From Sipunculus nudus (taxonomy: Eukaryota; Annelida; Sipuncula; Golfingiida; Sipunculidae): 64,000 nucleotides of DNA. The position numbers and the translations under genes were made by a program. Where the stretch lies: positions 38,770,676-38,834,675 of the forward strand of contig CM049311.1 of assembly GCA_026874595.1 (NCBI GenBank), read 5' to 3'. Below, piece after piece: positions 3,331-49,300 of the stretch (within the stretch, counting starts at the first letter, position 1; every line of letters begins with the position of its first letter). The notes below the pieces were generated by a model. The model was not told the DNA's origin and ran no database searches. It saw only the letters and a list, made by a program, of their open reading frames with translations.

Positions 3331-4245
3331 CAGAAGGCGGTCGGTATAAGAACAAGATGTGACCAACATGATCTTGTTAGGAATCATGATTTGTTTTCTG
3401 TTTCTGGATATCAGGTTTATATTTTATTTTGTGGGCACAATCAAAAGGGGTTTTTATTAACGTAGGCGGACAGGGTCGGGCCATCTGGGAGGGGTTAGGT
3501 CTTTTTTTAGTTTTTTTTCCTGGTTCGACTTTTTGTTTTGTTATATTTTTTCTGTACTTGAAAAAAAAGAATGTATTTTTGAATAAAAAGAGTAATCTAT
3601 TCATGTAAATAGTAGAGTAATATATTGATAAATACCTTTAAATAACATGTAAAATATTGTATATCATGTAAATATATATATTGTGCATACTGTAAAATGC
3701 ACTGTTTTGGTTGATTTCATGCAAATATGTTTCACTTGTTGTCTATGGCACTGGAAATTGTATTGCTTTAAAATTACAATTTTTCATTAGAATATTTTTA
3801 ATTTTTATCTATCTTGATAAATAGCTTTGAAAATGAATGGGTTGTGTTAAGAAAGTGAATTAAACCAGAATGATCACAGGATAAATACACAAATTAGAAA
3901 AGAATGAAAGAAAAAATGGATCAACAACAAAAAATGAAAAAAAAATAAAAATAAAAAACTCTGCCCCAAATAAAAAAATTTAAATCATCTTTGACCTAAA
4001 TCGACAACCTCACCTGTCGCTTCTTCAACTACCCCAAATAGAACAAAAACATAAAATCTCTCCAAAACATAAATAAATAAAAACAAAACCCCATAGAACC
4101 CTGTGATGTCACATCACTTTTGATCCCTTGAGGCTGTTACCTTTCTGAATTATTCCTTATGATTTTGTGAAATAATAGCATATGCACTACTTTTATGTAA
4201 ATATTCAAAACAACAGTAATAATATTTTTTTGTTTGTAATTTCAG
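3331..4245. other. upstream region / probable 5' UTR intron of the ankyrin gene
   Basis: AT-rich non-coding DNA with A- and T-runs. It ends in a pyrimidine-rich tract and TTTCAG (4240-4245), a good 3' splice site 22 bp before the ankyrin-SOCS start codon. A non-coding first exon should therefore lie upstream, but its donor and the promoter could not be placed. Confidence 0.5.
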
Positions 4246-4267
4246 GCTCACAATAACATTTGAAATC

Positions 4268-5710
4268 ATGGCTGAGGAAGACTCAACAGAAACTCAACTG
4301 AAGGAGGACTTTTTTAGTGCAGTGAAATACAATGATTTTGAGGTGGTGGACCAGCTTTTAAGAAACCCTGGTCTGGATGTCAACTGGGAAGTTGATCAGA
4401 GAACAGCATTGGCGTTGGCTATAGAAAATTGTAACCCTGTGTTAGTAAGACGTCTCATAGATGCAGGAGCCGATATCAACAAACCCAACTATTGCCGTAT
4501 GTATTACACTTACGAAACACCAATTGTTGAAGCAACCAGGAAAGGCAGTAATGAAATATTTGATCTTCTTTTGAATTCTGCAACTCCAGTAAACCTGGCC
4601 AGTGATGGTCGTAAAAATGCTCTGATGTGGGCATCGTCATACTCTGACGATCACATGGTGACGGGTTTGCTGAAACAGGAAGATATTGATGTGAACTGGG
4701 TCGGTGATGATGGTAACACTGCCCTGCACAGTGCGGTGACCCACGGGAGAGAGAACATAGTTGAAATTCTACTCAGCCATGGAGCAGAGGTCTGCTATAA
4801 TCGTGAGTTACGCACCCCACTTCATACTGCAGGAGTATATGGATATGAGCGTATAGCGAAAGCTCTTTTAAAACACAGAGCTCGGATTGATGCAGTAGAT
4901 ATTTATGGTAACACACCCTTTTCTTTAGCTTGTATGAGAGACCATCTGGAGGTAGCTCAAGAAATGAAGGCAGTGTTTGATGGGGATGATGATATTGACT
5001 GGCATGATTTATTAGGGAGTGGCCTTCATGGGGCCTGTATGTTAGAAAACATTGATGTGCTAAAATGGCTTCTCTCTGTAGGGGCAGATGCAAATTATAC
5101 AAAGAAAGATGGATCAACACCTTTAATAACAGCCGCAGTATCAAAACCCAGTTATGAGAAACTTTCGCTTTTGATTGAAAACGGTGCCCAGGTGAACCAT
5201 GTGACCACTAAAGGTCTTACAGCTCTCCAGCATGTGTTAGAAGTCAGCCATGATTGGCGTGTACATGACTTGCTAGTGTATCACGGAGCTGATATAATTC
5301 CTCAGACAGTCAGTAAACAGTTGCTGTTGCCTATCTGCCTTGCCTGCCCTGCTGACACACTGACTGTTCTGCTTCACAGCGGAGCGTTATCACGCAACAG
5401 CACTAAGGCTTACATGCAGGAGTGGTGCTCCATGTATGCTGACACTGTCACCAGTGAAATGAATGATACACAGGCATCTGTAGAAATTAAACAAGTTCTC
5501 AAGTTTACAAAGTTGATGGACAGTGTGTTGCTTCATCCACCCAAGCTAATCAACATATGTAGACACACTGTCCGCAGGTTAATGGTCAGTATTACAGGAG
5601 GTAAGAGTATCGTGCCATTAACAAAGACAATATCTTCAGTCCCAGCTCCAGTTGTGGAATTTCTTTTGTTGAATGATATTCGTCAAACAGAACCTTCCCA
5701 TGAACACTGA
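4268..5710 (+). CDS. ankyrin repeat and SOCS box (ASB-type) protein, 480 aa
   Basis: The whole protein is in one exon. Residues 11-345 hold about nine ankyrin repeats. The clearest are TALALAIENCNPVLVRRLI (46-64), TALHSAVTHGRENIVEILLS (151-170), TPLHTAGVYGYERIAKALL (183-201) and HGACMLENIDVLKWLLSVGA (254-273). Residues 423-468 (HPPKLINICRHTVRRLM, then PAPVVEFLLL) fit the SOCS-box pattern of a BC box followed by a proline-rich Cul5 box. Family members act as substrate receptors of Elongin B/C-Cullin 5 ubiquitin ligases; the substrate here is unknown. The start is the first ATG after a splice acceptor at 4245, in the context ATCATGG. ASB genes form large, rapidly duplicating families, so no subtype is assigned. 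The SOCS assignment is less certain than the ankyrin repeats. Confidence 0.88.
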   Translation: MAEEDSTETQLKEDFFSAVKYNDFEVVDQLLRNPGLDVNWEVDQRTALALAIENCNPVLVRRLIDAGADINKPNYCRMYYTYETPIVEATRKGSNEIFDLLLNSATPVNLASDGRKNALMWASSYSDDHMVTGLLKQEDIDVNWVGDDGNTALHSAVTHGRENIVEILLSHGAEVCYNRELRTPLHTAGVYGYERIAKALLKHRARIDAVDIYGNTPFSLACMRDHLEVAQEMKAVFDGDDDIDWHDLLGSGLHGACMLENIDVLKWLLSVGADANYTKKDGSTPLITAAVSKPSYEKLSLLIENGAQVNHVTTKGLTALQHVLEVSHDWRVHDLLVYHGADIIPQTVSKQLLLPICLACPADTLTVLLHSGALSRNSTKAYMQEWCSMYADTVTSEMNDTQASVEIKQVLKFTKLMDSVLLHPPKLINICRHTVRRLMVSITGGKSIVPLTKTISSVPAPVVEFLLLNDIRQTEPSHEH

Positions 5711-34400: not shown

Positions 34401-37400
34401 ACCCTCCTCCCCTCAATGTACTCTGACAATACATGAAATTTGCAAAATACAATGGAGTACTATTCTGAATGTATGAAAATTACATAATGCTAGACTGGTC
34501 CTGTGCTTAATACTTTGGCTTAATTAGGCCGTATAAAAGCTGGCAAGTAAACATTATGCTATTCCTCCTTTATACAAGCCTCTGGGGTTTCCTACAATAC
34601 TGCACACTTTTATCTCATTTTTTAAATGAAACAGATCAAGAAATATACCTAGAATCATCTGACATCATGATGAAGATAGAAATGAACCAGCTTTTCCAGA
34701 GAATATGCAGAAAAGTGCAACAAGGTGAAAGCAAATGGTGCAGGCTATCAGACTTACATTGTGTAAATGAAACTTTCTAGAGTTATTTACATGAATATTC
34801 ATCTACAGGTCAAAGGTAAATGTAAAAGTCAAAGTTCAAAAAGAAATTATTTAAGTTGTGCTTACCAGCAGGACCTACCACCAAGATTGGTAACTTGAGC
34901 ATTTATAGTTTTTATAAATGATTCATAAATCTGACAGTAATTTTTCAGCTGCACATAAATTTGAAAAAAAAATGAATTCAGATTTTCCTTGTTAAATTTA
35001 CACTTGTAGACTGATACAACATCCGCAAATTACAAAATAACATATTTCCAAAGGAAGTTGGTAACCTTTGACCTCTCTCTTACAAAAGAATTTCATTTCA
35101 AACAGTCATATATAAATCTGATGACATTTTGATAACTCTTACATTCCCAGATCATCAAGCATTTGATAAATTAAACAATCCCCAGATTATGTTTTTCTGC
35201 AGGTTATCTATTATGAAAAGTATCGTTCGAACTTCAAATATAAATGGATCAATCTCCCCCTCCCCCCTGAAAATGCTCATGTTACCATGACTCCAGCTGA
35301 GACGGACACAAGTGCAAGGTGAAAGGAAAAGGTGCATCTCCACATCTACTTACACTCAGCTTACTCACGTCTTTGAGGGCATCAACAAGTCTACCAGAAC
35401 CATCCATACTGTTCAAGAAATCCTTGTAGAACTTCATCTTAACACGACCCTCTCTCATCTGGAGGCGACCAATGCCACTGAAGGTGAACTCCACATTCTT
35501 CTTGGCCCCGACGGAACGAGATAATGCCTGGAGGACTTCTCGTACACATGATTCTACCGTGTCACGGGGGAAAGGAGTCTCAAAGGATAAGGCTGCGAAA
35601 TTAAGCTGAACCACAGGGATCTCTCCTGAAAGTAATATAAATTTAACACAAACTCAATACATGAGAGGCAAAACTGACAAAATCCAGAGGCATTAGTTTA
35701 CTTTGCTTTCTCATGTGTACTGTGCATACACACATTTTAAAAAATGAATAAGCATGAGAAATATTGCATATGTCAAAGGTAGTAGCTACTGACCTAATAC
35801 CCCCTGGGTTTTTGCCTTGGTTTTTTCACGCAAGGAACTGACTCTCTGTTGCTAGCACCTTGTTACCAGGTGAGGAAGCCCTCCCAAGTGGCGGTTCAAA
35901 ATGGGACTGTTCCATTTTGATAATCATATCAGTTATAAAGGTTACAGCACCAGTCACTAGTGACCTATTCTGTCTACTACTGATACTATAATTCAATTCA
36001 CATGGAATTGGTAAGGCATCTACTTGACCAGCACCAAGGAGAATATAACGCTCTACATGGATTAAAACTAATACTGAAAAGGAAATATTTATTTATCATA
36101 CATATTGATCATAGAGAAAATATAACACAGATGTATAACCCACATGTTCTGTTTAAAGGTTAAAATTATCATTTAGCACCATTTTTTGTGCAGGGGTATG
36201 GGCAACATACTTTAAGTATGAACCTAATCTAGTCAAATTTACATGTTCATGTGAACAATCATTTAAATTCAATACTGTATGACAATATACTTCTTGCTGC
36301 TGTAATAAAGACCACCTTTGAAAAATTCAAGACTTTTTACAATTTAATACTTAAAAGACTTTGCGGATCTGCAGGGCCTCTATAAAAGATAAACTGTTAA
36401 ATGATTGAAAACAACTGATAAAACTTACAGCTTAATCATACAGGACCTATTGTAAGCAAAAAGGAGGTTGTTAAATGCTATTAACCTTTGGTATCTACCC
36501 AGCCAGTTATGGTATCCGACCAAGTTTACCACGATTATGGAACCAGAAAAATGTTGATCGCCTATCTGAATAGCTATCCAGCACATAAGAAGATTGTGTT
36601 TACTTTCCGTACATACAAGAAGCCAAAATTCAACACAACAGACCCTCATCAAACACAAGTGACCCTTACAGTTAATGCTGAGGAACTGTAGCGGGTCTCC
36701 CAGCAGAATTGCAATCAGAGCGTGCAGCTTCTTAAGCAGGTTAAACAAAACTATACAAACATTGCATGTACCTCTACACCAAACTTTACACCAGGGCCAC
36801 CCCTGTATATTAGTGTGCATGACCTATTATCAAAACCAGTGTGGCCCTATATTCAAAGGGTGAATCAGAGCTACAGAGTAAATACAGTACAAAATCATGA
36901 TTTGATATGCTGTCATGACCATGACCTTCTATGTCAGTTTATTTTCATGGCCCTGGAATATTACTTTACAAGTAACAAACCCAGAGGTATGTATGAGGGG
37001 ACTAGCCCAGATGAAAACTGCAATACCTTCCTAGAAATGCCGCCTGGAACAATACACACAACTGACTGGCAATCATTAAAATTGCCTTTTCCCAGATCTG
37101 AATTATATATCAACACTATCTTTTTGGCATTTTTAAATTAGAAATCTACGTATACTGATAAGTAAATAACTAATTTAATTCCTATTTGTGTAATTCCATC
37201 TTAGATGCACTTGCTAATTTTTTATGTAGTACTTTCCCTGTGAATATTTTGGACTTAAAATTTTTCTTTAATATGTTTATTGCCAATAACAAAACACAGG
37301 GGTTACACTGTTAATGATCATGCTGTCTCAAGTTATACCTGCCTGTACAGTGGTTACAAATATTGATAAATGTTAGTGACAAATTAATAATAGATACTCA

Positions 37401-40257: not shown

Positions 40258-43052
40258 ACTGAAAGTTTTATTTTTGAGACAGTATCGCTTACAAATCATA
40301 AAATATCACTGGACAGAGGCAGCCTGATCAATTTCATTTTATATACTGCAAGGACCTTGCCAGAAGTGTTAAATGGTATCTAAGCTTAAGAATTATAGTG
40401 TGGTTAAATGATCTATAATCCTGATAAAATTGTTCAAAGCCAGCTATTCACATGCCTTATTTATAGGATTCATGGGATTCCTAGCTTACTCTAGGTATTT
40501 ATATATCAATGAACTAATTCCTGCAGTGAAAAGTTACTGTGAATGCCCTGTTACAGGTGTACAAGCTTGTTTATCTACAAGTTATTAGTAAACATGGTAC
40601 AAATGTCCAAGTTTACAATATGATAAACCTTAAAGGAGCCCAATCACCCAATCACCTATAAAGCACGTTGAATTGACACAAAAAATGGCTTCTTCCCTTT
40701 AAAATAAATCTGTACCTGCCAAAATATTGCCTTGAAACTGTTTGTTTGCTCCCGTACACAAGTGTTAAAAACAATGGACCGGGCGCAATCACAGGTGTCA
40801 ACATAAACACAGCAACTTGTGTCAATCAGGAGATGCCCTGACTAATACATGTACCCCCTGGCTGAAACAATGCGTGTAGTGGTTCCCTGTTAGACCACCA
40901 TTCATGTGGCCTTGTTAGGATAAACAGACACACATGAACTGTGTTTCCAATATGCTGGCAGAGCCATAACAAGGTGTTTAACAGCCGTATGCAAGGTACT
41001 GAGACTGTCTGCTGGGATGGTTTTGCTGGAAAACTTTTGTATAAAGCAAAACTGAACATATAGTGTGAAAGGATAGGCACATTATTTTACCTGATTATGT
41101 CCCTTTAAAGGTGGTCAGTTGAACATGTGCAAAGGTTGAAAGGTCACTAGTTTGTTAACAAGAGCATGTGTAGCATCTCTCATCCTTTGTAATTTGCAGA
41201 ACATTAGCTGGATGTCATTGTTGTGTGCATTTGGGTTACAATCATTAGCCAATTTAGCTCCCTCCCCCTCCCCTATGTCAACATGTAAATATAAAACAAA
41301 AGGGACAAGCTGTGAACCATGGGATCATCCTTTTTGGCTTCTTTTTATTTAAGGCCAAAGATATTATAAATTGTTATTTAATACTGTTACACAAGATGGA
41401 TTCCTTTTATAATGCAAGGAATATTCACTTCCAGGATGTTTTTTTTTTCATATATAAAATCAACAAGGTTCTGATATATTGGGTATTATTACTGACCAAA
41501 ATGATGACCTCTCTATATGAAGGTATGTATAGAGGTTTAGGAATTTCTTATGCACTAGAGATACAAGTTTATTATTAGAATATTAGTTAGTATTATAGTT
41601 ACCATATAAAAATCAGCATACTTATAACGGGGTACAATTGTTGAGTTGAACTTTCAGGCACTTATAAGATAAGCATTTAACAAAAATGTACATCGATGAT
41701 CACAATAACATAGGAAACTGCTTTCAGGGGGGGGAGAGAGGGGGGGTTTATTGAAAAGAATAGAATCGTACCTGTGAGGAGGTACCAATAGGTCAGGGTC
41801 TGTTTATCTTATTTAGGGTAAGATAAAGAGAGATGATTTTTTTTTAGAACCAATTTTTCAAATGGACCCTTAGTTTTGAGAAATAAACAGTTCACTGCTT
41901 CAAGCATAGACTTGAGCCCAATTAAAGTAAAAATGAGTGTGAAAAAAGGTAGACAACTTACCTGTTGTGTGATGTTTGGTATAATGAAGCCCATGGGTTT
42001 GTGCGAATCTCTCTGACAGCAAAAATACAGGTCTCTGGATGAGTATAAATTTGTTATTACCTACGTCTAGCTTCTTTTGGCTAAAACTGAAAACTCCAAG
42101 TCCTGGTATATTAACTCCCTGAAAAAAATTAAATGCATATTATTAATCAATATGCATACATTGGCTAAAAAAAGTCAGAACAACCTGGAAAAACATGTCT
42201 GTATGTTAAATTATACAAGTGCAGGAAATAACAAGTATGGGAACTCCAAATATAATCAAAATGCTAGATATATTACACTCACCCAGTTATATCAATATGA
42301 ATAACAAAAATAGATTTATAGTGAAATAATACTGTAACATTTAACTTTGTATTTAATTCTGGGCAGTGGGAAGGCATGTAGGAATTGTAATAATCCATTA
42401 TTTGTCAGTAAAGTCTAGAGGTACAGATTATTTGATAAGTGGACAATTATGGCAAACTAACTTGAATACTGTTCATGAAAACTTGATTTTAAAAAAAAAT
42501 AACAGATCTAATTATGATAAATAAAACTTGGAATGCCCTAATATAAAGTACTATGTAAGCTGTGATTATAAATTAAATACTTTTTTTTATTAGTTCTTAG
42601 ACTTTTATACGTCCATAAGACAATATATAATATTAATAACAATGATAAATATTGATCTGATAGATTGAGCATGTTATGACAGGTCCAGATTTCCAAATAA
42701 TGTAAATTATGCATGCACCATCTAAAACTTTGATTTTAAATAAAACTTAAGAAAGGTTTAGAACTGTCTATAATTGCACATACCTTCTGTTGTGACATCT
42801 GCTTCTCAATGAAGCCTGAAACGTTATCCCAAACACTGACAACATCTGGAAGACAAAATGGAACAAATTTACCATCAAATGCTGCAAGAATACGTTTAAT
42901 AATAAACTTGTCAAATGTAAACAAACAGCTGACAGACCACGGAGGACGCCATTGGCTGATGACAACTCACCTTCATCTGTCAGGGAAGGTCCGATTGTTG
43001 AGAACTTGTTCTTCTTTGCCTCAGATACTAATCCCTGCATAATTTCAGTCAT
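13185..43052 (-). CDS. CCDC81: CCDC81 (HU-like domain centrosomal protein), 15 coding exons
   Basis: CCDC81 is a centrosome-associated, mostly coiled-coil protein. Rebuilt exons, 5' to 3': 43052-42971, 42845-42784, 42118-41962, 35625-35369, 32240-32161, 28799-28597, 25369-25238 (cassette), 24014-23801, 21343-20989, 19904-19797, 18765-18682, 17965-17880, 16695-16617, 14222-13996, 13449-13185. Every junction has AG/GT borders and matching phase, giving 796 codons (752 without the cassette); vertebrate CCDC81 is about 650. Residues about 10-100 and 104-184 are the two HU-like domains (first: GVNIPGLGVFSF, NNKFILIQRPVF; second: VEFTFSGIGRLQMREGRVKM). An acidic/proline-rich linker follows, then a CYLC motif, a long charged coiled coil, and the family's C-terminal block CDKYKRCSQCKRQ...GESNIW...PGSRLMV. 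The upstream neighbour is RPF2, divergent. Identity is firm; the extra linker length and exon 7 usage are less certain. Confidence 0.93.
13996..14222 (-). CDS. CCDC81: CCDC81 coding exon 14
   Basis: Acceptor TTTTTTCCACAG, donor GTGAGTA, 227 nt. Encodes VKFKPLPIPARVPDSSEPVF, a family-typical motif, followed by a basic/glutamine-rich coiled coil. Confidence 0.93.
15150..15311 (-). CDS. candidate CCDC81 cassette exon
   Basis: Between exons 13 and 14. An acceptor-like TTAGATTCAG precedes 54 stop-free codons (VRDSVRSPTSSAKPGIRVNK first), ending at a weak donor ATG/GTATTA. Both sides are phase 0, as are the neighbouring exon ends, so inclusion would keep the frame. The codon composition looks less random than surrounding intron. 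I find no counterpart in vertebrate CCDC81. It could equally be a transposon-derived or captured fragment: the frame stays open past the donor, through a run of ten C, to about 15020. Confidence 0.3.
16617..16695 (-). CDS. CCDC81: CCDC81 coding exon 13
   Basis: 79 nt, donor GTATGT. Encodes LAAQREQYLKDKVDQQDMYK and the following ALSAQ, matching the family segment LAAQRAKFLKDKM. Confidence 0.93.
17207..17229. repeat. (CA)n microsatellite
   Basis: Short CA run, about 11 units, in a CCDC81 intron. Confidence 0.9.
17301..17360 (+). mobile_element. piggyBac-type MITE, truncated end
   Basis: TTAACCCTTTAGTGTTTATA and the following GGACAAATTCTGACA match the reverse complement of the right end of the 87-353 MITE. 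No opposite terminus was found within several hundred bases. Confidence 0.55.
17880..17965 (-). CDS. CCDC81: CCDC81 coding exon 12
   Basis: 86 nt, acceptor TGTGACAG, donor GTAAGT. Encodes a coiled-coil stretch with FLERLEQVQLAEE, closely matching the vertebrate protein. Confidence 0.93.
18682..18765 (-). CDS. CCDC81: CCDC81 coding exon 11
   Basis: 84 nt, acceptor TCCTCTTGCAG, donor GTAAGA, phase 0 at both ends. Encodes PSYIFQKRPLTPPRFIKQEK and more; FxKRPLTP is a conserved family motif. Confidence 0.92.
19311..19600 (+). repeat. minisatellite, about 19-bp unit (CAGTGTCAATGTATCAATA)
   Basis: About fifteen imperfect copies of a 19-bp unit with variants (CAATGTATCAAGACAGTGT). It lies in the CCDC81 intron between exons 10 and 11. 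The repeat creates open frames in several phases that are not genes. Confidence 0.85.
19797..19904 (-). CDS. CCDC81: CCDC81 coding exon 10
   Basis: 108 nt, acceptor ATTTTTAG, donor GTAAGTT, phase 0 both ends. Encodes HSNQKMAAFNLGISEAIKLK, matching the family's NQKNAAYNLGVAEAI. Confidence 0.93.
20550..20965 (+). repeat. interspersed repeat, copy 1 (partner at 61246)
   Basis: An AATGACTGAAAGAT start, a CACCATCTGTATTAC block and a run of TAATATGACTTG, CAATCGATTATATCGAT and GACCAGTCATCA blocks recur in the same order at 61246-61675. Total length is about 415 bp. The right end lies about 23 bp from the donor of CCDC81 exon 9. Confidence 0.7.
20989..21343 (-). CDS. CCDC81: CCDC81 coding exon 9
   Basis: 355 nt, acceptor TTATCTTCCAG/ATTGGC, donor CAG/GTCAGT. 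Encodes the CYLCHQRDRRN motif and the start of the coiled coil (SFTEERNRREKEEDRLLQQY), both conserved in CCDC81. The same frame stays open upstream of the acceptor for 704 nt more (see 20989-22047). Confidence 0.93.
20989..22047 (-). CDS. CCDC81: alternative extended CCDC81 exon 9 with its own start
   Basis: Upstream of the exon 9 acceptor the same frame is open for 234 further codons, back to an ATG at 22047 (MPVQDLSYLNDGTFDCSKYT first). The composition is protein-like throughout: acidic patch ISDEDDTESLDV, PPPF, paired cysteines QQCPCIV. In this AT-rich DNA such a run is unlikely by chance. Splicing from exon 7 or 8 to the only nearby upstream acceptor hits a stop, so the simplest reading is an alternative first exon from an internal promoter. 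That would give an isoform of about 635 residues lacking the HU domains. Intron retention of older coding DNA is the alternative. Confidence 0.6.
23400..23745. repeat. AT-rich degenerate tandem repeat
   Basis: Blocks ATCATATAAAC, CATTCAT, TTTTCATATAT, AAACACACATTTAT and TAAAAATAAAATA recur about every 115-125 bp, two to three times. TTATTATTA microrepeats are included. Intronic in CCDC81. Confidence 0.5.
23801..24014 (-). CDS. CCDC81: CCDC81 coding exon 8
   Basis: 214 nt, acceptor TGATTTCAG, donor GTAAGT. Encodes a serine/proline-rich, basic, probably disordered linker (IKKPSPPPGAPSRSGSRLAV, ... VARQSPLVKSSPTP). Its phase fits both exon 6 and exon 7, so exon 7 can be skipped. Several SP sites could be phosphorylated by proline-directed kinases (inference). 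Confidence 0.85.
25238..25369 (-). CDS. CCDC81: CCDC81 coding exon 7 (cassette or alternative first exon)
   Basis: 132 nt (44 codons), phase 1 at both ends, so skipping keeps the frame between exons 6 and 8. Encodes VKPAIYRTTDHKGYILEYVD and a lysine-rich tail. The donor ATAG/GTAGTT is acceptable. The 3' splice site (ATGGCTATGACAG) has no pyrimidine tract and is preceded by an A-run. In-frame ATGs lie at 25382 and 25376 (MAMTVKP), so the segment may instead open an alternative transcript. Confidence 0.65.
27650..28155. repeat. interspersed repeat with internal 125-bp periodicity
   Basis: GTGACCTTTGACCTCAT-like blocks recur near 27700, 27839 and 27967. ATGAAAATCC and the AAGTTATCATGGCGACACC/TTATTGTGGCAACAC blocks recur between them. 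The end (ATTATATGTCCCATCATAGATGGCGTAT) resembles the tails of common marine-invertebrate repeats. Non-coding, inside the CCDC81 intron between exons 6 and 7. Confidence 0.5.
28160..28565 (+). repeat. purine-rich degenerate minisatellite (about 50-bp unit)
   Basis: Repeated AACAACAAAACCAAAGGAGAGG and ATGAGGAAGAAAA blocks on the plus strand, almost pure purine plus C. The minus strand is correspondingly U/C-rich in the CCDC81 transcript, starting 30 nt downstream of the exon 6 donor. Open frames here are low-complexity artefacts. Confidence 0.6.
28597..28799 (-). CDS. CCDC81: CCDC81 coding exon 6
   Basis: 203 nt, acceptor CACTTTCATAG, donor GAAG/GTAGGT. Encodes RITQGQTGLNLEAEIKQPLM, then a strongly acidic region (EEAVPMDEEPVIPNDLQMDE). 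This is a probably disordered linker after the HU domains; the first residues align with vertebrate PRIELKEMENK. Confidence 0.88.
28800..32160 (-). other. CCDC81 intron between exons 5 and 6
   Basis: AT-rich non-coding DNA. A poly-C run lies at about 31663-31676. No embedded gene or well-defined transposon was recognised. Confidence 0.5.
32161..32240 (-). CDS. CCDC81: CCDC81 coding exon 5
   Basis: 80 nt, acceptor GATTAACAG, donor CAAG/GTAGGT. Encodes RPGTMDSVMSDRAPSRPLSS and then NTLVLP, aligning residue by residue with the vertebrate RPDTVDSVLSSREALRKWPS segment. Confidence 0.92.
33501..33715. repeat. 45-bp minisatellite, five copies
   Basis: Units start at 33501, 33546, 33591, 33636 and 33681. 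The core is CCTTAATAAGTGAGGTCTTC followed by AAACTGAGGCTATCCCTGAG. The middle copies are nearly identical. The period is a multiple of three, so the array is open on both strands, but the composition and the position inside a CCDC81 intron argue against coding. Confidence 0.9.
34232..34350 (+). repeat. short tandem duplication, about 48-bp unit, three copies
   Basis: GGGCTCCAGGGTGGTATTTG recurs at 34240, 34280 (one change each in two bases) and 34321, separated by CAAATGAATCA-type spacers. Confidence 0.8.
35369..35625 (-). CDS. CCDC81: CCDC81 coding exon 4 (second HU-like domain)
   Basis: 257 nt, acceptor ACTTTCAG, donor AAAGAC/GTGAGT. Encodes the entire second HU-like domain, from EIPVVQLNFAALSFETPFPR to KFYKDFLNSMDGSGRLVDAL. 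This is the best conserved stretch of the protein (VEFTFSGIG and FYKDFL are near-invariant). Confidence 0.95.
40174..40252. repeat. (TA)n microsatellite, 79 bp
   Basis: Uninterrupted TA dinucleotide array; open frames across it are artefacts. Confidence 0.98.
40630..41112. mobile_element. MITE-like element with imperfect inverted termini
   Basis: The left end CCTTAAAGGAGCCCAATCACC and the reverse complement of the right end, CCTTTAAAGGGACATAATCAGG, are imperfect inverted repeats about 480 bp apart. A related end (CCTTTAAAGGGGCCCAATCACC) occurs at 11514-11537. No coding capacity. The target duplication is unclear. Confidence 0.4.
41962..42118 (-). CDS. CCDC81: CCDC81 coding exon 3 (end of first HU-like domain)
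   Basis: 157 nt, acceptor TTTTTTTCAG, donor CAACAG/GTAAGT. Encodes GVNIPGLGVFSFSQKKLDVG and NNKFILIQRPVFLLSERFAQ. This corresponds to the GVQIPAFGTFTF and NNKFILIQRPVF segments of vertebrate CCDC81 and was diagnostic for the gene. Confidence 0.95.
42784..42845 (-). CDS. CCDC81: CCDC81 coding exon 2
   Basis: 62 nt, acceptor TGTCTTCCAG, donor AAG/GTATGT. Encodes DVVSVWDNVSGFIEKQMSQQ, the helical part of the first HU-like domain. Confidence 0.94.
42971..43052 (-). CDS. CCDC81: CCDC81 coding exon 1
   Basis: 82 nt from the ATG at 43052 to donor GAAG/GTGAGT. Encodes MTEIMQGLVSEAKKNKFSTI and GPSLTDE. The start is the first ATG facing the shared promoter; the context is TCACCATGA on this strand. 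Confidence 0.9.
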
Positions 43053-43358: not shown

Positions 43359-46300
43359 GTGAGTGAAGAAAAGAGTTATTTTGTACATACACACACCCAC
43401 TGCACATAATCAGTTCAGTTTTAATGGATGTTTGACTCTTTATTATATTTCAGATGTTAAATTGTACAGTGTTTTGACAATAGGTTCGTGAGAAGGATAC
43501 CCTCGAAACAACCAAACACCGGTGTTTTGGGTATATTATTATGACGAAACACCTATTGCCTCTTAAATTAGAGAAAAAATACCATTACCAGGCTATCAAT
43601 AGTCACTAAACCTGTATATTCTAAACTTAGAAAATTTCATGAAAAATAGAATTTTTCATGACAAATACATATATACGGTCCCTCGAAACACCCAAAACAC
43701 CGTGTTTTGGGTATACTATGACGAAACACCGCGAAACACCTATTATCTCTCAAAGGAGAGGGAAAATATTAATTCCAGAGTATCAATTGTCACTTAAGTG
43801 GTATACCTGTACAATTTGGGGGGTTAATTCTTTAAAATAAAGTCACACGGGAGTGTTAAGTGATACTGTCCGCATGTTCAGTTCAATGCGGCCATATTCA
43901 TATTTATGCTACTGCCCCTGGCGGAGCTGTCATAAACGATTCTGAACCGTGTTTTGGGTGATCAAATTATGATTTTAAGCTTCTGATCATTAACAATGAA
44001 TATTTTAGATTTTATTTCTGTGTATTTGGTATTGGTAACTTTTTTACACTTTCGTCAGGGTGTGCCTTTTTGTAATTGTGATTATTATTATTAATATTCA
44101 TGTGTCAATGAAATATTTTCATTATCATAAATTAAATAGAATACTGAACAAAGACATACGTACATTTTCTTTAATCTCTTCATTAAGAGTTGTTGATAAG
44201 AATAACCACTCTGCTCAGTAAACATTTTTTGCACATCAGTTGACATACAGAAAGACATAAGTTTGACAGTGCTCACAATGTCAAGTGAACTCGCAACGAT
44301 CTCACAGTTTGTCTGTATTCAAGATGTCATGAGCAACTTATGTTTATTCAAACGTGTCCACACTGGTTATAAGTGACTATCATGATGACACAATGTAAAT
44401 AAGCGCTTCAGTGGGTCTTCAGTGGATTAGGCATATGGGAGTATTTTCTTAATTACCCCTTTGAACTACTAGATCAAAGACCATTTATCGCAACAGTGGT
44501 TCGGGGTTGAGTAATCACCCATGGCCGTAGGTGTGAAATGCCGATTGACATGGTTCACAGGATCGTAAAAATCATTAGTTTTAAATCTAATATTATTTCC
44601 TTAACAATGCAACTTTTAATACCAGCATTATTCTGATGAAGATGACCGTTTCAACTATGACCTTGCCATTTCACGCTTGCAGAGATCGTCAAGAAAGAAC
44701 TTAGGGCAGCTAAGAAGCCAGGCCATTGTTGAGGGAATTCTTATTCGAGATGAATTTTCCTCCCAGCAGCAAAGATCCAGGCATTCTCTCAGGACTGACC
44801 TTACATTAGGATAACAAATGAACATATTTACATTAATAATCATTGATAAATGATCAGAAGCCCAAAATCATAATTTGATCTCCCAAAACACCGTTCAGAA
44901 TTGTTTATGACAGCTCCGCCAGGGGGCAGTAGCATAAATATGAATATGGCCACATTGAACTGAACATGCCGACCGTATCACTAAACACTCCCGTGTGACT
45001 TTATTTTAAAGAATTAACCCCCCAAATTGTACAGGTATACCACTTAAGTGACAATTAATACTCTGGAATTAATATTTTCCCTATCCTATAGGGATAATAG
45101 GTGTTTCGCGGTGTTTCGACATAGTATACCCAAAACACCGTGTTTTGGGTGTTTCGAGGGACCCCATATATACAGACTTTTTTTTGCAATGCCTGCAGAT
45201 ATTGATTATTGGCCTGATTTTTAGTGTGTGGGCAGATAATGACCAGTTACAGATTGAGTTCGCGTTTCGTCCAGGTTGACCTACATTTGACCGTTTTATG
45301 GCTCCTAAACTAAGAAAATTTTATGAAAAATAGAAATTTTCATGACAAATACACATGAAGACTTTTTTTCGCAATGCCTGCAGATATTGGCCTGATTTTT
45401 GGTGTGTGGGCAGATAATGACCAGTTATAGATCGAGTTCGCATTTAGTCCAGGTTGACCTTCTTTTGACCGTTTTATGGCTCCTAAACTTAGAAAATTTT
45501 ATGAAAAATAGAAATTTTCATGACAAATACACATGTACAGACTTTTTTTCGCAATGCCTGCAGATATTGGCCTGATTTTTGGTGTGTGGGCAGATGATGA
45601 CCAGTTACAGATCGAGTTCCCGTTTCCTCCCAGTTGACCTACTTTTGACCATTTTACGGCTCCTTAACTTTAAAAATTTCATGAAAAATAGAAATTTTCA
45701 TGAAAAATACACATGTTCGGACTTTTTTTCACAATGGCTGCAGATATTGGCCTGATTTTTGGTGTGTGGGCAGATAATGACCAGTTACAGATCGAGTTCG
45801 CGTTTGACATACTTTTGACTGTTTTACGGCTCCTTAACTTAGAAAATTTCATGAAAAATAGAAATTTTCATGACAAATATACATGTACAGCCATTTTAGC
45901 CCTCAGCTCATAGGCTGATGGGCTATTGTCGTCACCCAAGCTGTCCGTCTGTCTGTCCATCCGGAGTCTGTCCATCCTGCGTCTGTTAACTTTTACCTTG
46001 TGAGCGGGATATATATATCTCTAAAAGGATTCACCGTTGCAAATTTATTTCATCAGTGAATATGTATATCGATAAAATCTTGGTCAAGTTCAAAGATGGG
46101 TGACCTTGACCCATTTTTCTACATTTTTGAGCTGATTATACAAAAACACTCAAAAGCTTATATCTCAGGAACCATATGGTGGATTGTTATGAAACATGGT
46201 ACATACCTCTCCAATTTAAATTTATAACTGATTATCAGCTTTTACTACTATCCTAGTTTCGCAATGCACTGCTTACAGATACTGGCCTAATGTTTGGTCT

Positions 46301-49300
46301 GTGGGCGCATAATGACCACTTACAGATCAAGTTCGCATTTCATCCCAGTTGACCTATTTTTGATCATATGACAGATCCTGAACATAGAAAATTTCATGAA
46401 AGACAGAAATTTTATGAAAAATGCACATGTATGGACTTTTTTTCACAATGCCTGCAGATACTGGCCTGATTTTAGGTGTGTTGCTTGATAATGACCCGTT
46501 ACAGATCATGTTTGCATTTTGCCCATATTCACCTACTTTTGACCATACGACACCTCCTGAACTTAAAAAATTTTACAAAATTTAACAAATGTTTCTAATT
46601 TGCCCCAGGCGGGGGCATTCGTGTCGTTCTGACACATCTAGTTGTATCAACTTTTCCACTGAAAACATGAGGTTGTGTGATTTGTTCAAAATCCATTGGC
46701 ACATTTATGAGCACTGTCAACTCGGCAGTTACACACTTTGAAGTCCCCCGTGACTAAAAATTATGAATCTCAGTAAAAGCACAGTATTTCTGCCTCTGTC
46801 AGTCCCAAATATTCAGCAGAGAATAAAAACAACATGCATTACTAGATCTGAGTTGTTGATAAATTCAGTCCTTGATGTCACATGTACTAGCCAATCAAAT
46901 CGGGGCAAAGTCTAAGATCTGGATGAAATCCTCCCATCACACAACAAACGTACATGGAATAGGTTTACATAACCTTTAGAACTGCCTAAAAGTAAAAGTG
47001 TGCACGCTGGCATGAAGTTTCCCCTACCTAAACAATTTACTAAGACACTTGCAGCCAGATTAAGAAGACAATGTTCGTCATGTTACCCAAATTACTAAAA
47101 TTATGCTAGGTCACCTTTTCAGTGTATTTAAATTTTAATTTAAAAAATCAAATTAAAATGTAGCTCCAGTCCCATTAGTTTATATGTGATAAACAAAACA
47201 GAAGGCACTATGTGGGAGAAAAAAGGATTATCAATCATTAAATTTAAATAATTTTACAAGCCGGCTCAATTTTTAAATTCATCTAAAGAATATTATTTAT
47301 CACTAATAATGTTTCTTGGGTGTTTTTAATTTTATTCAGAGCAAGTGGAATGAAGACGTATTGGTTGCAACTAATTTATTTATACAACACATTATATTCA
47401 GAAATTTGTTATACAGTTAATATATACAGAATACCATTATTGTTATAACAAATAAAAATGAGCACAAAAGATAAATATATTGTGACAAACCAGTTACTGA
47501 GACCTGTACATATTCTAGTCCCACTAAAAAAACGAGCCACCAAGAATATTTAAATTTGGACTTGAATATAAAATTTGACTTGTAAATACCATTATCTCAA
47601 AGTAAAATGAGTACCATACACAATGGGTGTATTCGACTGGTCGATTTTTGACACAAATGTGCTACCCGCCTAGTGTATGTCAAATGGAATGTCATAAATA
47701 ATGAAATAAGTTAGGGAAAACATAATTTCTGCAGTGCATTAAAAGGTCAGTTTATATTAAAATGAAATATCAGATCATAAAGTGTAGTTAGAGAGACAGA
47801 GCTAATAATATTTGGTGAAGTTGTCAGCTGTTGTTGTCATCATGTTTGTTTACATCCGTGCTGACGACGCTGGGGAATTGTTCCATAGTATTTTATTTAT
47901 TATGTAAATAAATGGACTTACTGTACCATGATTTATTATAATTAGATGACAGAAGGTTCTAGAGAATTCAGGTAATGTGTATTTTCCAATAGGTAAATTC
48001 TAGAAAATCCCGTAGGAGCTAGTCTTGACCAGAAACAACCTGATTGTTCTAGAGACTTCTAGAAGTTTCGGTTACCCAGGTATAAATAGGGCGGTGTCAA
48101 GGCCGGGGGGGTAGTGAATGAATTTGGAAGTTACCATCGACTGGTGACAGGTCGTTTTATGTCAACGACAGATTAGTTGAACACCGAGCGGGGTGTGTTA
48201 CAAATTCCGCGAGGACAGTTTTAGTCCTGGAGAGAATATACATAGGTGCAGCCGATCAGGGCGTTAGAAGATATACGTGATTGGTATTTGTTGAAGACGT
48301 TGTTATTGTGAGATTGGAGCCAGTCAACGACGACGGTGGCCAATTGTTGGATGTTACCGGAATAAACCGTGTTATTCAGTTCAGACAACGAGTGGTACTT
48401 TGGACTTTTCTGTGTGAAAGAACTCGGGAATATATGTCCGCTGCGTGTGTGGTGTGACAATTTTGTGTAGCACATTCTCCCCAATCTACACATTTTATAT
48501 TCGGCTGGTAGCTTGTGTTACACGAACTCCTTGCCCGTGTAGCACAATCTCCTTGGATAAAATCAAAGTGTAGTAAGTAGTGAATGGATAAAGTCACACG
48601 ATCGGTAATTTTGTGTCAGCCAAACCAAGCAAGATTTTGTATTTGGTAGTCCATAAGAATTGATACCTCAATCTCTTTTTTCTGTGACCAGCTGAATGAA
48701 AAAAAACTGTAGCTTCACCATCTGCACTATATTCATGGTCACCAGCAGACATCATTACTGGATGTCATTTGACTGGTCCATTTCTAAGTAAGTACTACTT
48801 TTTGGCTACTGCGAAAGTGGGTGGAGCTTAATTTTACTCCTCGAAAAGTACCAGTCAAATATGGCTAAAGTAACAATCAAGAATACTGATATAAAATATT
48901 TGCAGTTCTAACTTGAATGTAAAATACCTTTTTATAAACTGTACACTTTTTATACATAGGGGACAAATCCACTTCTTTGCTTCCCCATACTGGATAACCT
49001 ATAACACATGAAAAGATATATTAATCTATCAGTTTCACTGGATCTCAAAATAGCTGTTTTTCCTAAATACTATTGCTTGTGTTTTAGTCTTTACACCTTT
49101 TTTTCTCCACATGTATTGAACACATGACATTGAAGTACTAAAAATGACACAAGGGGTCTAAATAAATAAAGTAAATAATAAGTAGCATGTTTTTACAAAA
49201 AGCTATTTGCAACACATATACTTACCAGATCATTGCCTCCAGATTCAGTCATTATCAGACCTAATTTTAACATGTTTGACGATCTTTCAGCCTTGTTGGT

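Follow-up and report, generated by a model that had tools for sequence, protein, structure and literature searches.

The window analysed in this study, a stretch of 64,000 nucleotides of Sipunculus nudus DNA, contains at positions 43677-45164 an insertion which a sequence-only reading had taken to be a Mutator-like element (MULE) of the Pack-MULE type, that is, one carrying exon sequence without a transposase, located in an intron. The locus raises the question as to which family the element belongs to and where its interior originated. Based on the findings presented here, we conclude that it is very probably a non-autonomous, internally deleted derivative of a DNA transposon family whose MULE transposase is combined with a PHD finger and an OTU domain. 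The family is new, although of the known MULE kind, while the window copy is an ordinary one. The features of the element and its target site are as follows, where L numbers denote loci retrieved from the same genome and P0001 is the transposase encoded by one of these (L009).

43668-43675 (no strand): target site duplication on the left, CATATATA; with 43676 included, its length is 9 bp
43676 (no strand): additional C just outside the left TIR, the same letter as at 45164
43677-44004 (plus): left terminal inverted repeat (TIR), approximately 328 bp, with the tip GGTCCCTCGAAACACCC
44005-44637 (plus): 5' non-coding region, common to L011, L012, L015, L017 and L018
44634-44800 (plus): transposase ORF fragment, residues 74-128 of P0001, with a 4-nt overlap at the left deletion junction
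44803-44835 (plus): subterminal stretch adjoining the right TIR, also present in other copies
44836-45163 (minus): right TIR, approximately 328 bp, 94% identical to the left arm
45164 (no strand): additional C just outside the right TIR, assigned by family comparison of end spacing
45165-45172 (no strand): target site duplication on the right, CATATATA, followed by the C that is position 180 of the repeat unit

Comparison of the left arm (43677-44004) with the right arm (45163-44835/6) revealed 93.9% identity over 330 columns (blastn, E 1.5e-142), a match far above chance, and the two long inverted repeats previously put at 325 bp are thus present at a length of approximately 328 bp. TIRs of such length are common, but not universal, in the MULE superfamily. 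The left TIR contains a subterminal near-palindrome, ACCCAAAACACCG-TGTTTTGGGT, in addition to repeated CGAAACACC. The element is flanked by an exact direct repeat, CATATATA(C), at 43668-43676 and 45165-45173. The left flank stops at position 180 of a 180-bp repeat unit (43676) and position 1 of the unit restarts at 45174, while the flanks, when joined, resemble the unbroken unit boundaries at 45359, 45539 and 45719 with few mismatches in each case. The insertion into the 180-bp unit is therefore real, as was proposed from the neighbouring units that are intact across the site.

The host genome (1,426,538,692 bases in 153 contigs) was searched with the 334-bp left end, which produced at least 41 matches including both arms of the window element (40 of 319 first-look candidates scored); the best 22 of these 41 by E-value are 94-100% identical. 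The 25-base tip, allowing up to three mismatches, was encountered 181 times in forward and 194 times in reverse orientation, as compared to zero for a reversed control. Twelve loci were retrieved from the terminus search, followed by 12 long or partial and eight short elements, 40 further short elements and then another 20, together with four transposase relatives and four 180-bp arrays. The genome search that the sequence-only reading had suggested thus located same-ended copies genome-wide. At G000:C3:67323244-67323293, two tips are positioned back to back within 50 bp, forming a nearly pure foldback of ends alone. Tips of the subfamilies contain a conserved subterminal palindrome, ACCCAAAACACCGGTGTTTTGGGT (shorter or mismatched in some), followed by CGAAACACC repeats, and this block is a possible candidate for transposase binding.

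Some of the copies are very young. Over 1417 bp, L016 and L009 share 99.9% identity; for L019 and L009 the figure is 99.8-99.9% across two stretches, one of 1661 bp and one of 2579 bp (4.2 kb together), while other stretches are mostly 94-99%, and some 84-93%, identical to L009. The near-identity of L016, L019 and L009 indicates that the family has been active recently. The window copy is 3-4% diverged from L009 across its alignable parts. TIRs of the diverged relatives L085 and L086 measure 131-134 bp, and no TIR pair was found in the transposase relatives L083 and L084 as retrieved.

The family also appears to have a miniature partner (MITE) of approximately 472 bp (L033-L078 and L087-L106) with the tips GGTCCCCCTAAACACC and GGTCCGCCTAAACA. 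Approximately 64 bp of the MITE tip is about 90% like that of the long elements, and tips with at most one mismatch gave 116 + 135 = 251 matches, both ends counted. The shared tips suggest that the transposase of the long elements would move the MITE, which is thus likely to be a partner of the long MULE family.

L009, which measures 5598 bp from GGTCC to GGACC and is flanked by 8-bp direct repeats (GCTATAAC), harbours an intact ORF of 1007 aa (P0001) between the same termini as those of the window element. Pfam domains exceeding their cut-off in P0001 are PHD (residues 23-71) and OTU (residues 152-238; 27.1 against 23.3 bits), whereas the MULE match (739-795; 23.7 bits, cut-off 27.6) and the Transposase_mut match (765-894; 20.5, cut-off 21) remain below theirs; no other transposase model and no integrase model is found among the Pfam matches to E 1. 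Since P0001 is itself below both transposase cut-offs, its assignment to the MULE type rests on relatives that are 36-74% identical to it. Pfam was also run on nine ORFs from relatives within this genome, two of which matched nothing; the MULE cut-off (27.6 bits) is passed by L083 (29.6) and L014 (30.1), with L084 and L024 below it, and the Transposase_mut cut-off (21) by L024 (26.5), with L014 below it. Residues D767, C788, H791 and E884 are invariant in all seven aligned proteins, as is the WTNNN block preceding the E, and all five alignment rows that extend to the first D retain it (IGIDRTF; VDKTY in L083). A same-ended family member thus possesses the DDE residues and the C-x2-H between the second D and the E that define the MULE superfamily.

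The best PDB matches of P0001 are Pygopus PHD fingers, in addition to one OTU chain at E 0.61. A DGNC motif and an NHF further along, which we take to be the OTU catalytic residues, are located in a single ORF in P0001 and L084 and are split between two adjacent ORFs in L083 and L085, while L024 exhibits a GNGNC form with NHF, also spread over two ORFs. In L014 (4491-6065) and in L026, an open ORF of 524 aa combines PHD finger and transposase but contains no OTU, and is perhaps a variant that spread.

The interior of the window element was compared with that of the other copies. Element positions 1-961 are present in L012 and L015, 4-961 in L011 and 185-961 in L017 and L018; positions 958-1124 are present in L009, L011 and L012, and in L015 as far as 1122. 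Positions 1127-1488, apart from at most the last 9 nt, match L008, L009, L010, L012, L017 and L018. The whole interior of the window element except 2 nt is thereby recovered in other family members. The parts meet at two deletion junctions, the first with a 4-nt overlap (element 958-961) and the second with a 2-nt gap, and a 391-bp probe spanning both yielded a full match at the window locus only (36 of 36 candidates scored). The coding piece corresponds to residues 74-128 of P0001 at 94.5% identity (tblastn). Element positions 437-861, in the non-coding interior, are 75% alike in the diverged copies L013 and L014, the TIRs of which are only about 80% alike, indicating that this is old family sequence as opposed to a recent capture. 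The window copy carries neither captured host sequence nor a working gene.

Two other explanations have to be weighed against that of a deleted MULE derivative. Duplications of 8 bp are typical of hAT and P elements also, and one may thus consider that the element derives from another superfamily with duplications of about this length (hAT, P or Merlin) and possesses long TIRs by chance; this would seem exceedingly improbable, as P0001 matches MULE and Transposase_mut, but no further transposase model at E <=1, and its relatives pass the cut-offs. The Mutator-like assignment of the sequence-only reading is instead substantiated: the same-ended element encodes a MULE/IS256-type transposase, three relatives pass the cut-off of one model each, and L009 represents the autonomous relative which that reading had proposed to look for between the same termini, where a partner from another superfamily would have spoken against it. 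The Pack-MULE explanation, according to which the interior represents host-gene sequence captured between MULE ends, draws on the fact that the window copy possesses a coding-looking stretch without a transposase gene of its own, and on the Muta1 derivatives of Aedes, approximately 20% of which carry host-gene fragments (PMC5225508). We nevertheless consider it highly unlikely, since the coding stretch is a portion of the family's own transposase, and the remaining interior, with the exception of 2 nt, is common to other members, positions 437-861 being retained even in the copies with TIRs that are only about 80% alike. A suspected animal Pack-MULE is thereby settled as an ordinary deletion derivative.

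As a deletion derivative, the window element would have been mobilised by a PHD-OTU-MULE transposase supplied in trans. As the family at large suggests, binding of this protein to the long TIRs would be followed by excision of the element and its insertion at a target cut with a stagger of 8 or 9 bases, which would generate the duplication in the 180-bp repeat. Two internal deletions in a long copy most likely gave rise to the short form: the first would have joined the 5' region to approximately codon 74 of the transposase and the second approximately codon 128 to the 3' end, in agreement with the junctions described above; repair of an excision gap is one example of a process by which such deletions may have occurred.

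The ends were read at 73 loci (the window and L007-L078), both tips being present in 49, and the addition of L085 and L086 brought this number to 51; a second set of 20 new MITE copies, 11 with both ends, resulted in an overall number of 62 two-ended loci. An exact direct repeat with a spacing of one base per side was observed at 45 of the 62, with a length of 8 bp at 26 loci, 9 bp at 17 and 10 bp at two. The first set accounts for 36 of 51 (8 bp 23, 9 bp 12, 10 bp 1) and the second for nine of 11 (8 bp 3, 9 bp 5, 10 bp 1), such a repeat being absent from 15 of 51 and two of 11 loci, respectively. The lengths observed (8-10 bp) fall within the 8-11 bp range given for MULE target duplications in the cited part of PMC6446971. 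The 9-bp duplication held to be characteristic in the sequence-only reading is therefore a feature of 17 copies, but 8 bp is commoner, 10 bp occurs in two copies and 17 of the 62 lack an exact repeat of this kind.

In all 45 loci, one extra base separates the duplication from GGTCC/GGACC at each end. The coordinates 43677-45164 originally assigned to the window element fit a 9-bp duplication with an extra C on the right, whereas comparison with the family favours 8 bp plus one C at each end; the window duplication reads as the latter, although this single copy fits the 9-bp reading too. As a family rule, a 9-bp-only duplication with an extra right C was rejected, as 20 of the 36 first-set copies (C..C 15, G..G 4, G..T 1) fit only a spacing of one base per side, and not 0/0, 0/1 or 1/0.

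The letters of this outer base, read on the top strand of the 45 loci, are C..C in 34, G..G in seven and other in four; the same letter is present at both ends in 41 of the 45 copies, while C..G and G..C occur in none. The 36 first-set loci comprise C..C 26, G..G 7, G..T 1, T..C 1 and A..C 1, and those of the second set with a repeat C..C 8 and T..C 1, its two loci without a repeat both being C..C. The 15 first-set loci without such a repeat comprise C..C 9, G..G 3, G..C 2 (L011 and L015) and C..A 1, and include L007, where the repeat is set off by two bases on the left side, L059 with a 7-bp repeat and two bases on the right, and L013 with an imperfect repeat.

When the short elements are oriented with the GGTCCCCC end on the left, C is present at both ends save in L035 (G..T), L037 and L101 (T..C), L067 (A..C), L053 (C..A, no repeat) and L054 (G..G, with the GGTCCCCC tip at both ends), and a written prediction for new MITE copies, namely C beside GGTCCCCC, was borne out in eight of nine. 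Among the long elements, oriented in the direction of the transposase, the window element, L007, L010, L012, L024, L025 and L030 are C..C, and L009, L013, L014, L016, L085 and L086 are G..G (L016 being oriented by its match to L009, and L007 and L013 lacking a repeat at one-base spacing). L009 and L010 carry opposite letter pairs, yet their alignable stretches are about 96-99% alike. The coupled letter spans subfamilies with transposases roughly 44-77% identical to P0001, and both gene orientations. In the long elements, neither TIR side nor haplotype fully explains the outer base (N-side C 6, G 4, T 1).

The cutting and pairing of ends is less worked out for eukaryotic MULEs than for their bacterial IS256 relatives. 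For this process, the paired outer base provides a specific and testable lead, which a specialist might follow. It is unlikely that the base is chosen anew at each jump, as the MITE letter tracks the adjoining TIR variant. The simplest account, we infer, is one of truly unequal ends (CGGTCC at one TIR and GGGTCC at the other) which are inherited, with recombination between the long TIRs having sometimes flipped the interior. Alternatively, the coupled base may be a scar left by a TIR-N-TIR intermediate whose junction measures one bp, in the form of an IS256-like circle or a copy-out/paste-in process, or else unequal ends may be required in the synaptic complex. The equality of letters in 41 of 45 repeat-flanked copies, with C..G and G..C never encountered, would agree with such a scar, as would the occurrence of both C..C and G..G relative to the gene, even between copies as close as L009 and L010. 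IS256-family elements form circles with TIR-TIR junctions, but the spacers reported in the cited part of PMC7780238, which deals with ISCth4, exceed one base (5-8 and 19 bp). The dependence of the MITE letter on the adjoining TIR variant (8/9) fits fixed, unequal ends that are inherited, and head-to-tail junctions were not found in the genome using two exact patterns (0-12 bases between ends, no mismatches), which is a weak test. On balance, both the scar and the synaptic requirement are unlikely, and the simple inheritance of unequal ends is preferred.

Concerning known systems, Muta1 and other MULEs of Aedes aegypti are likewise animal MULEs with long TIRs bearing a palindromic tip motif, duplications of 8 or 9 bp and many non-autonomous derivatives (PMC5225508). 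They differ from the present family in the 504-aa transposase of Muta1, encoded by two exons as compared to a single 1007-aa PHD and OTU ORF, in that the term OTU is absent from the cited text of that paper, and in the host-gene fragments of about 20% of Muta1 derivatives, of which the window derivative has none (PMC5225508). MuDR-6_HM (Cnidaria, group 14), compared by description only, is a MULE with OTU ('Ovarian Tumour Gene'; PMC6446971), and this combination of OTU and transposase is present in P0001 (27.1 against 23.3 bits). MULE-Cg and MULE-Mollusca (groups 15 and 19), again by description only, are of MULE type, the TIRs of MULE-Cg measuring 48 and 296 bp; the cited descriptions of these three list no zinc-finger type, as opposed to the PHD found here (PMC6446971). 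Rehavkus, also by description only, shares a MULE-like structure with a PHD finger, duplications of 9 bp and TIRs (26-400 bp), but possesses a minisatellite before its 3' TIR, and OTU is unlisted in that description (PMC6446971).

Ginger1 transposases also carry an added OTU or Ulp1 domain, and one a PHD, while Ulp1 and PHD are mentioned in Mutator transposases too (PMC2836005). Ginger1, however, belongs to a DDE superfamily resembling Gypsy integrases, with OTU at the C-terminus (PMC2836005), in contrast to the N-terminal position in the MULE described here, and no integrase model to E 1 was matched by P0001. Pack-MULEs (PMC8277862) share with the window element MULE ends without a full transposase gene, but their defining captured host sequence is missing here. 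According to the cited part of the same source, no Pack-MULE was reported from 100 animal reference genomes, although Ssk-FB4 in Drosophila is described as Pack-MULEs. MULEs of arthropods and molluscs are treated in PMC13359780 and PMC10294476, respectively. Among the open-licence literature listed, no title or abstract opening names a PHD-OTU-MULE transposase or a paired outer base. The present study describes a MULE family with very young copies, a PHD-OTU-transposase and many copies with exactly readable ends.

The surroundings of the element contain the following features.

42972-43052 (minus): CCDC81-like gene, apparent first coding exon, MTEIMQGLVSEAKKNKFSTIGPSLTDE, with a GTGAGT donor after it
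43500-43618 (plus): older TIR remnant of the same superfamily, 90% identical to L030 and 76% to the window TIR
45171-45897 (plus): 180-bp repeat array, the insertion target, part of a dispersed repeat

A match to HU-CCDC81_euk_1 is located at 41984-42121 on the minus strand (E 7.6e-13) and one to HU-CCDC81_euk_2 within the ORF at 35282-35653, while the exon at 43052-42972 presumably itself resembles the start of CCDC81. Genes of this sort point to an animal host. The Egg_lysin and mollusc haemocyanin models gave no match, an outcome of little weight since their controls were equally silent. The window element is located 624 bp upstream of this apparent first coding exon, and its proposed location in an intron is thus unsupported; it may lie inside a 5'-UTR intron of the CCDC81-like gene.

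The presumed 180-bp satellite does consist of 180-bp units, but these form a short array within a dispersed repeat, for which 3523 first-look candidates were obtained from the genome (40 scored), and the array and its downstream tail are common to the four retrieved arrays and the window at 88-91%. Further units are present at 46257-46575, the downstream flanks being shared with L079-L082. The possibility that the array represents the interior of an older MULE was rejected, as no TIR-like match was found at the four other arrays (best E 0.55). The TIR remnant at 43500-43618 ends where a 180-bp unit begins, and the repeat region seems to have been struck twice by the MULE superfamily.

Elsewhere in the window, positions 4223-5710 are occupied by a long single ORF of ankyrin repeats. 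In the assembly (G000), the small contigs C61, C62, C72, C74, C75, C82, C83 and C89 gave HU-like matches in stop-free frames of 94-119 codons, below the cut-off, and these contigs are possibly bacterial or other foreign sequence.
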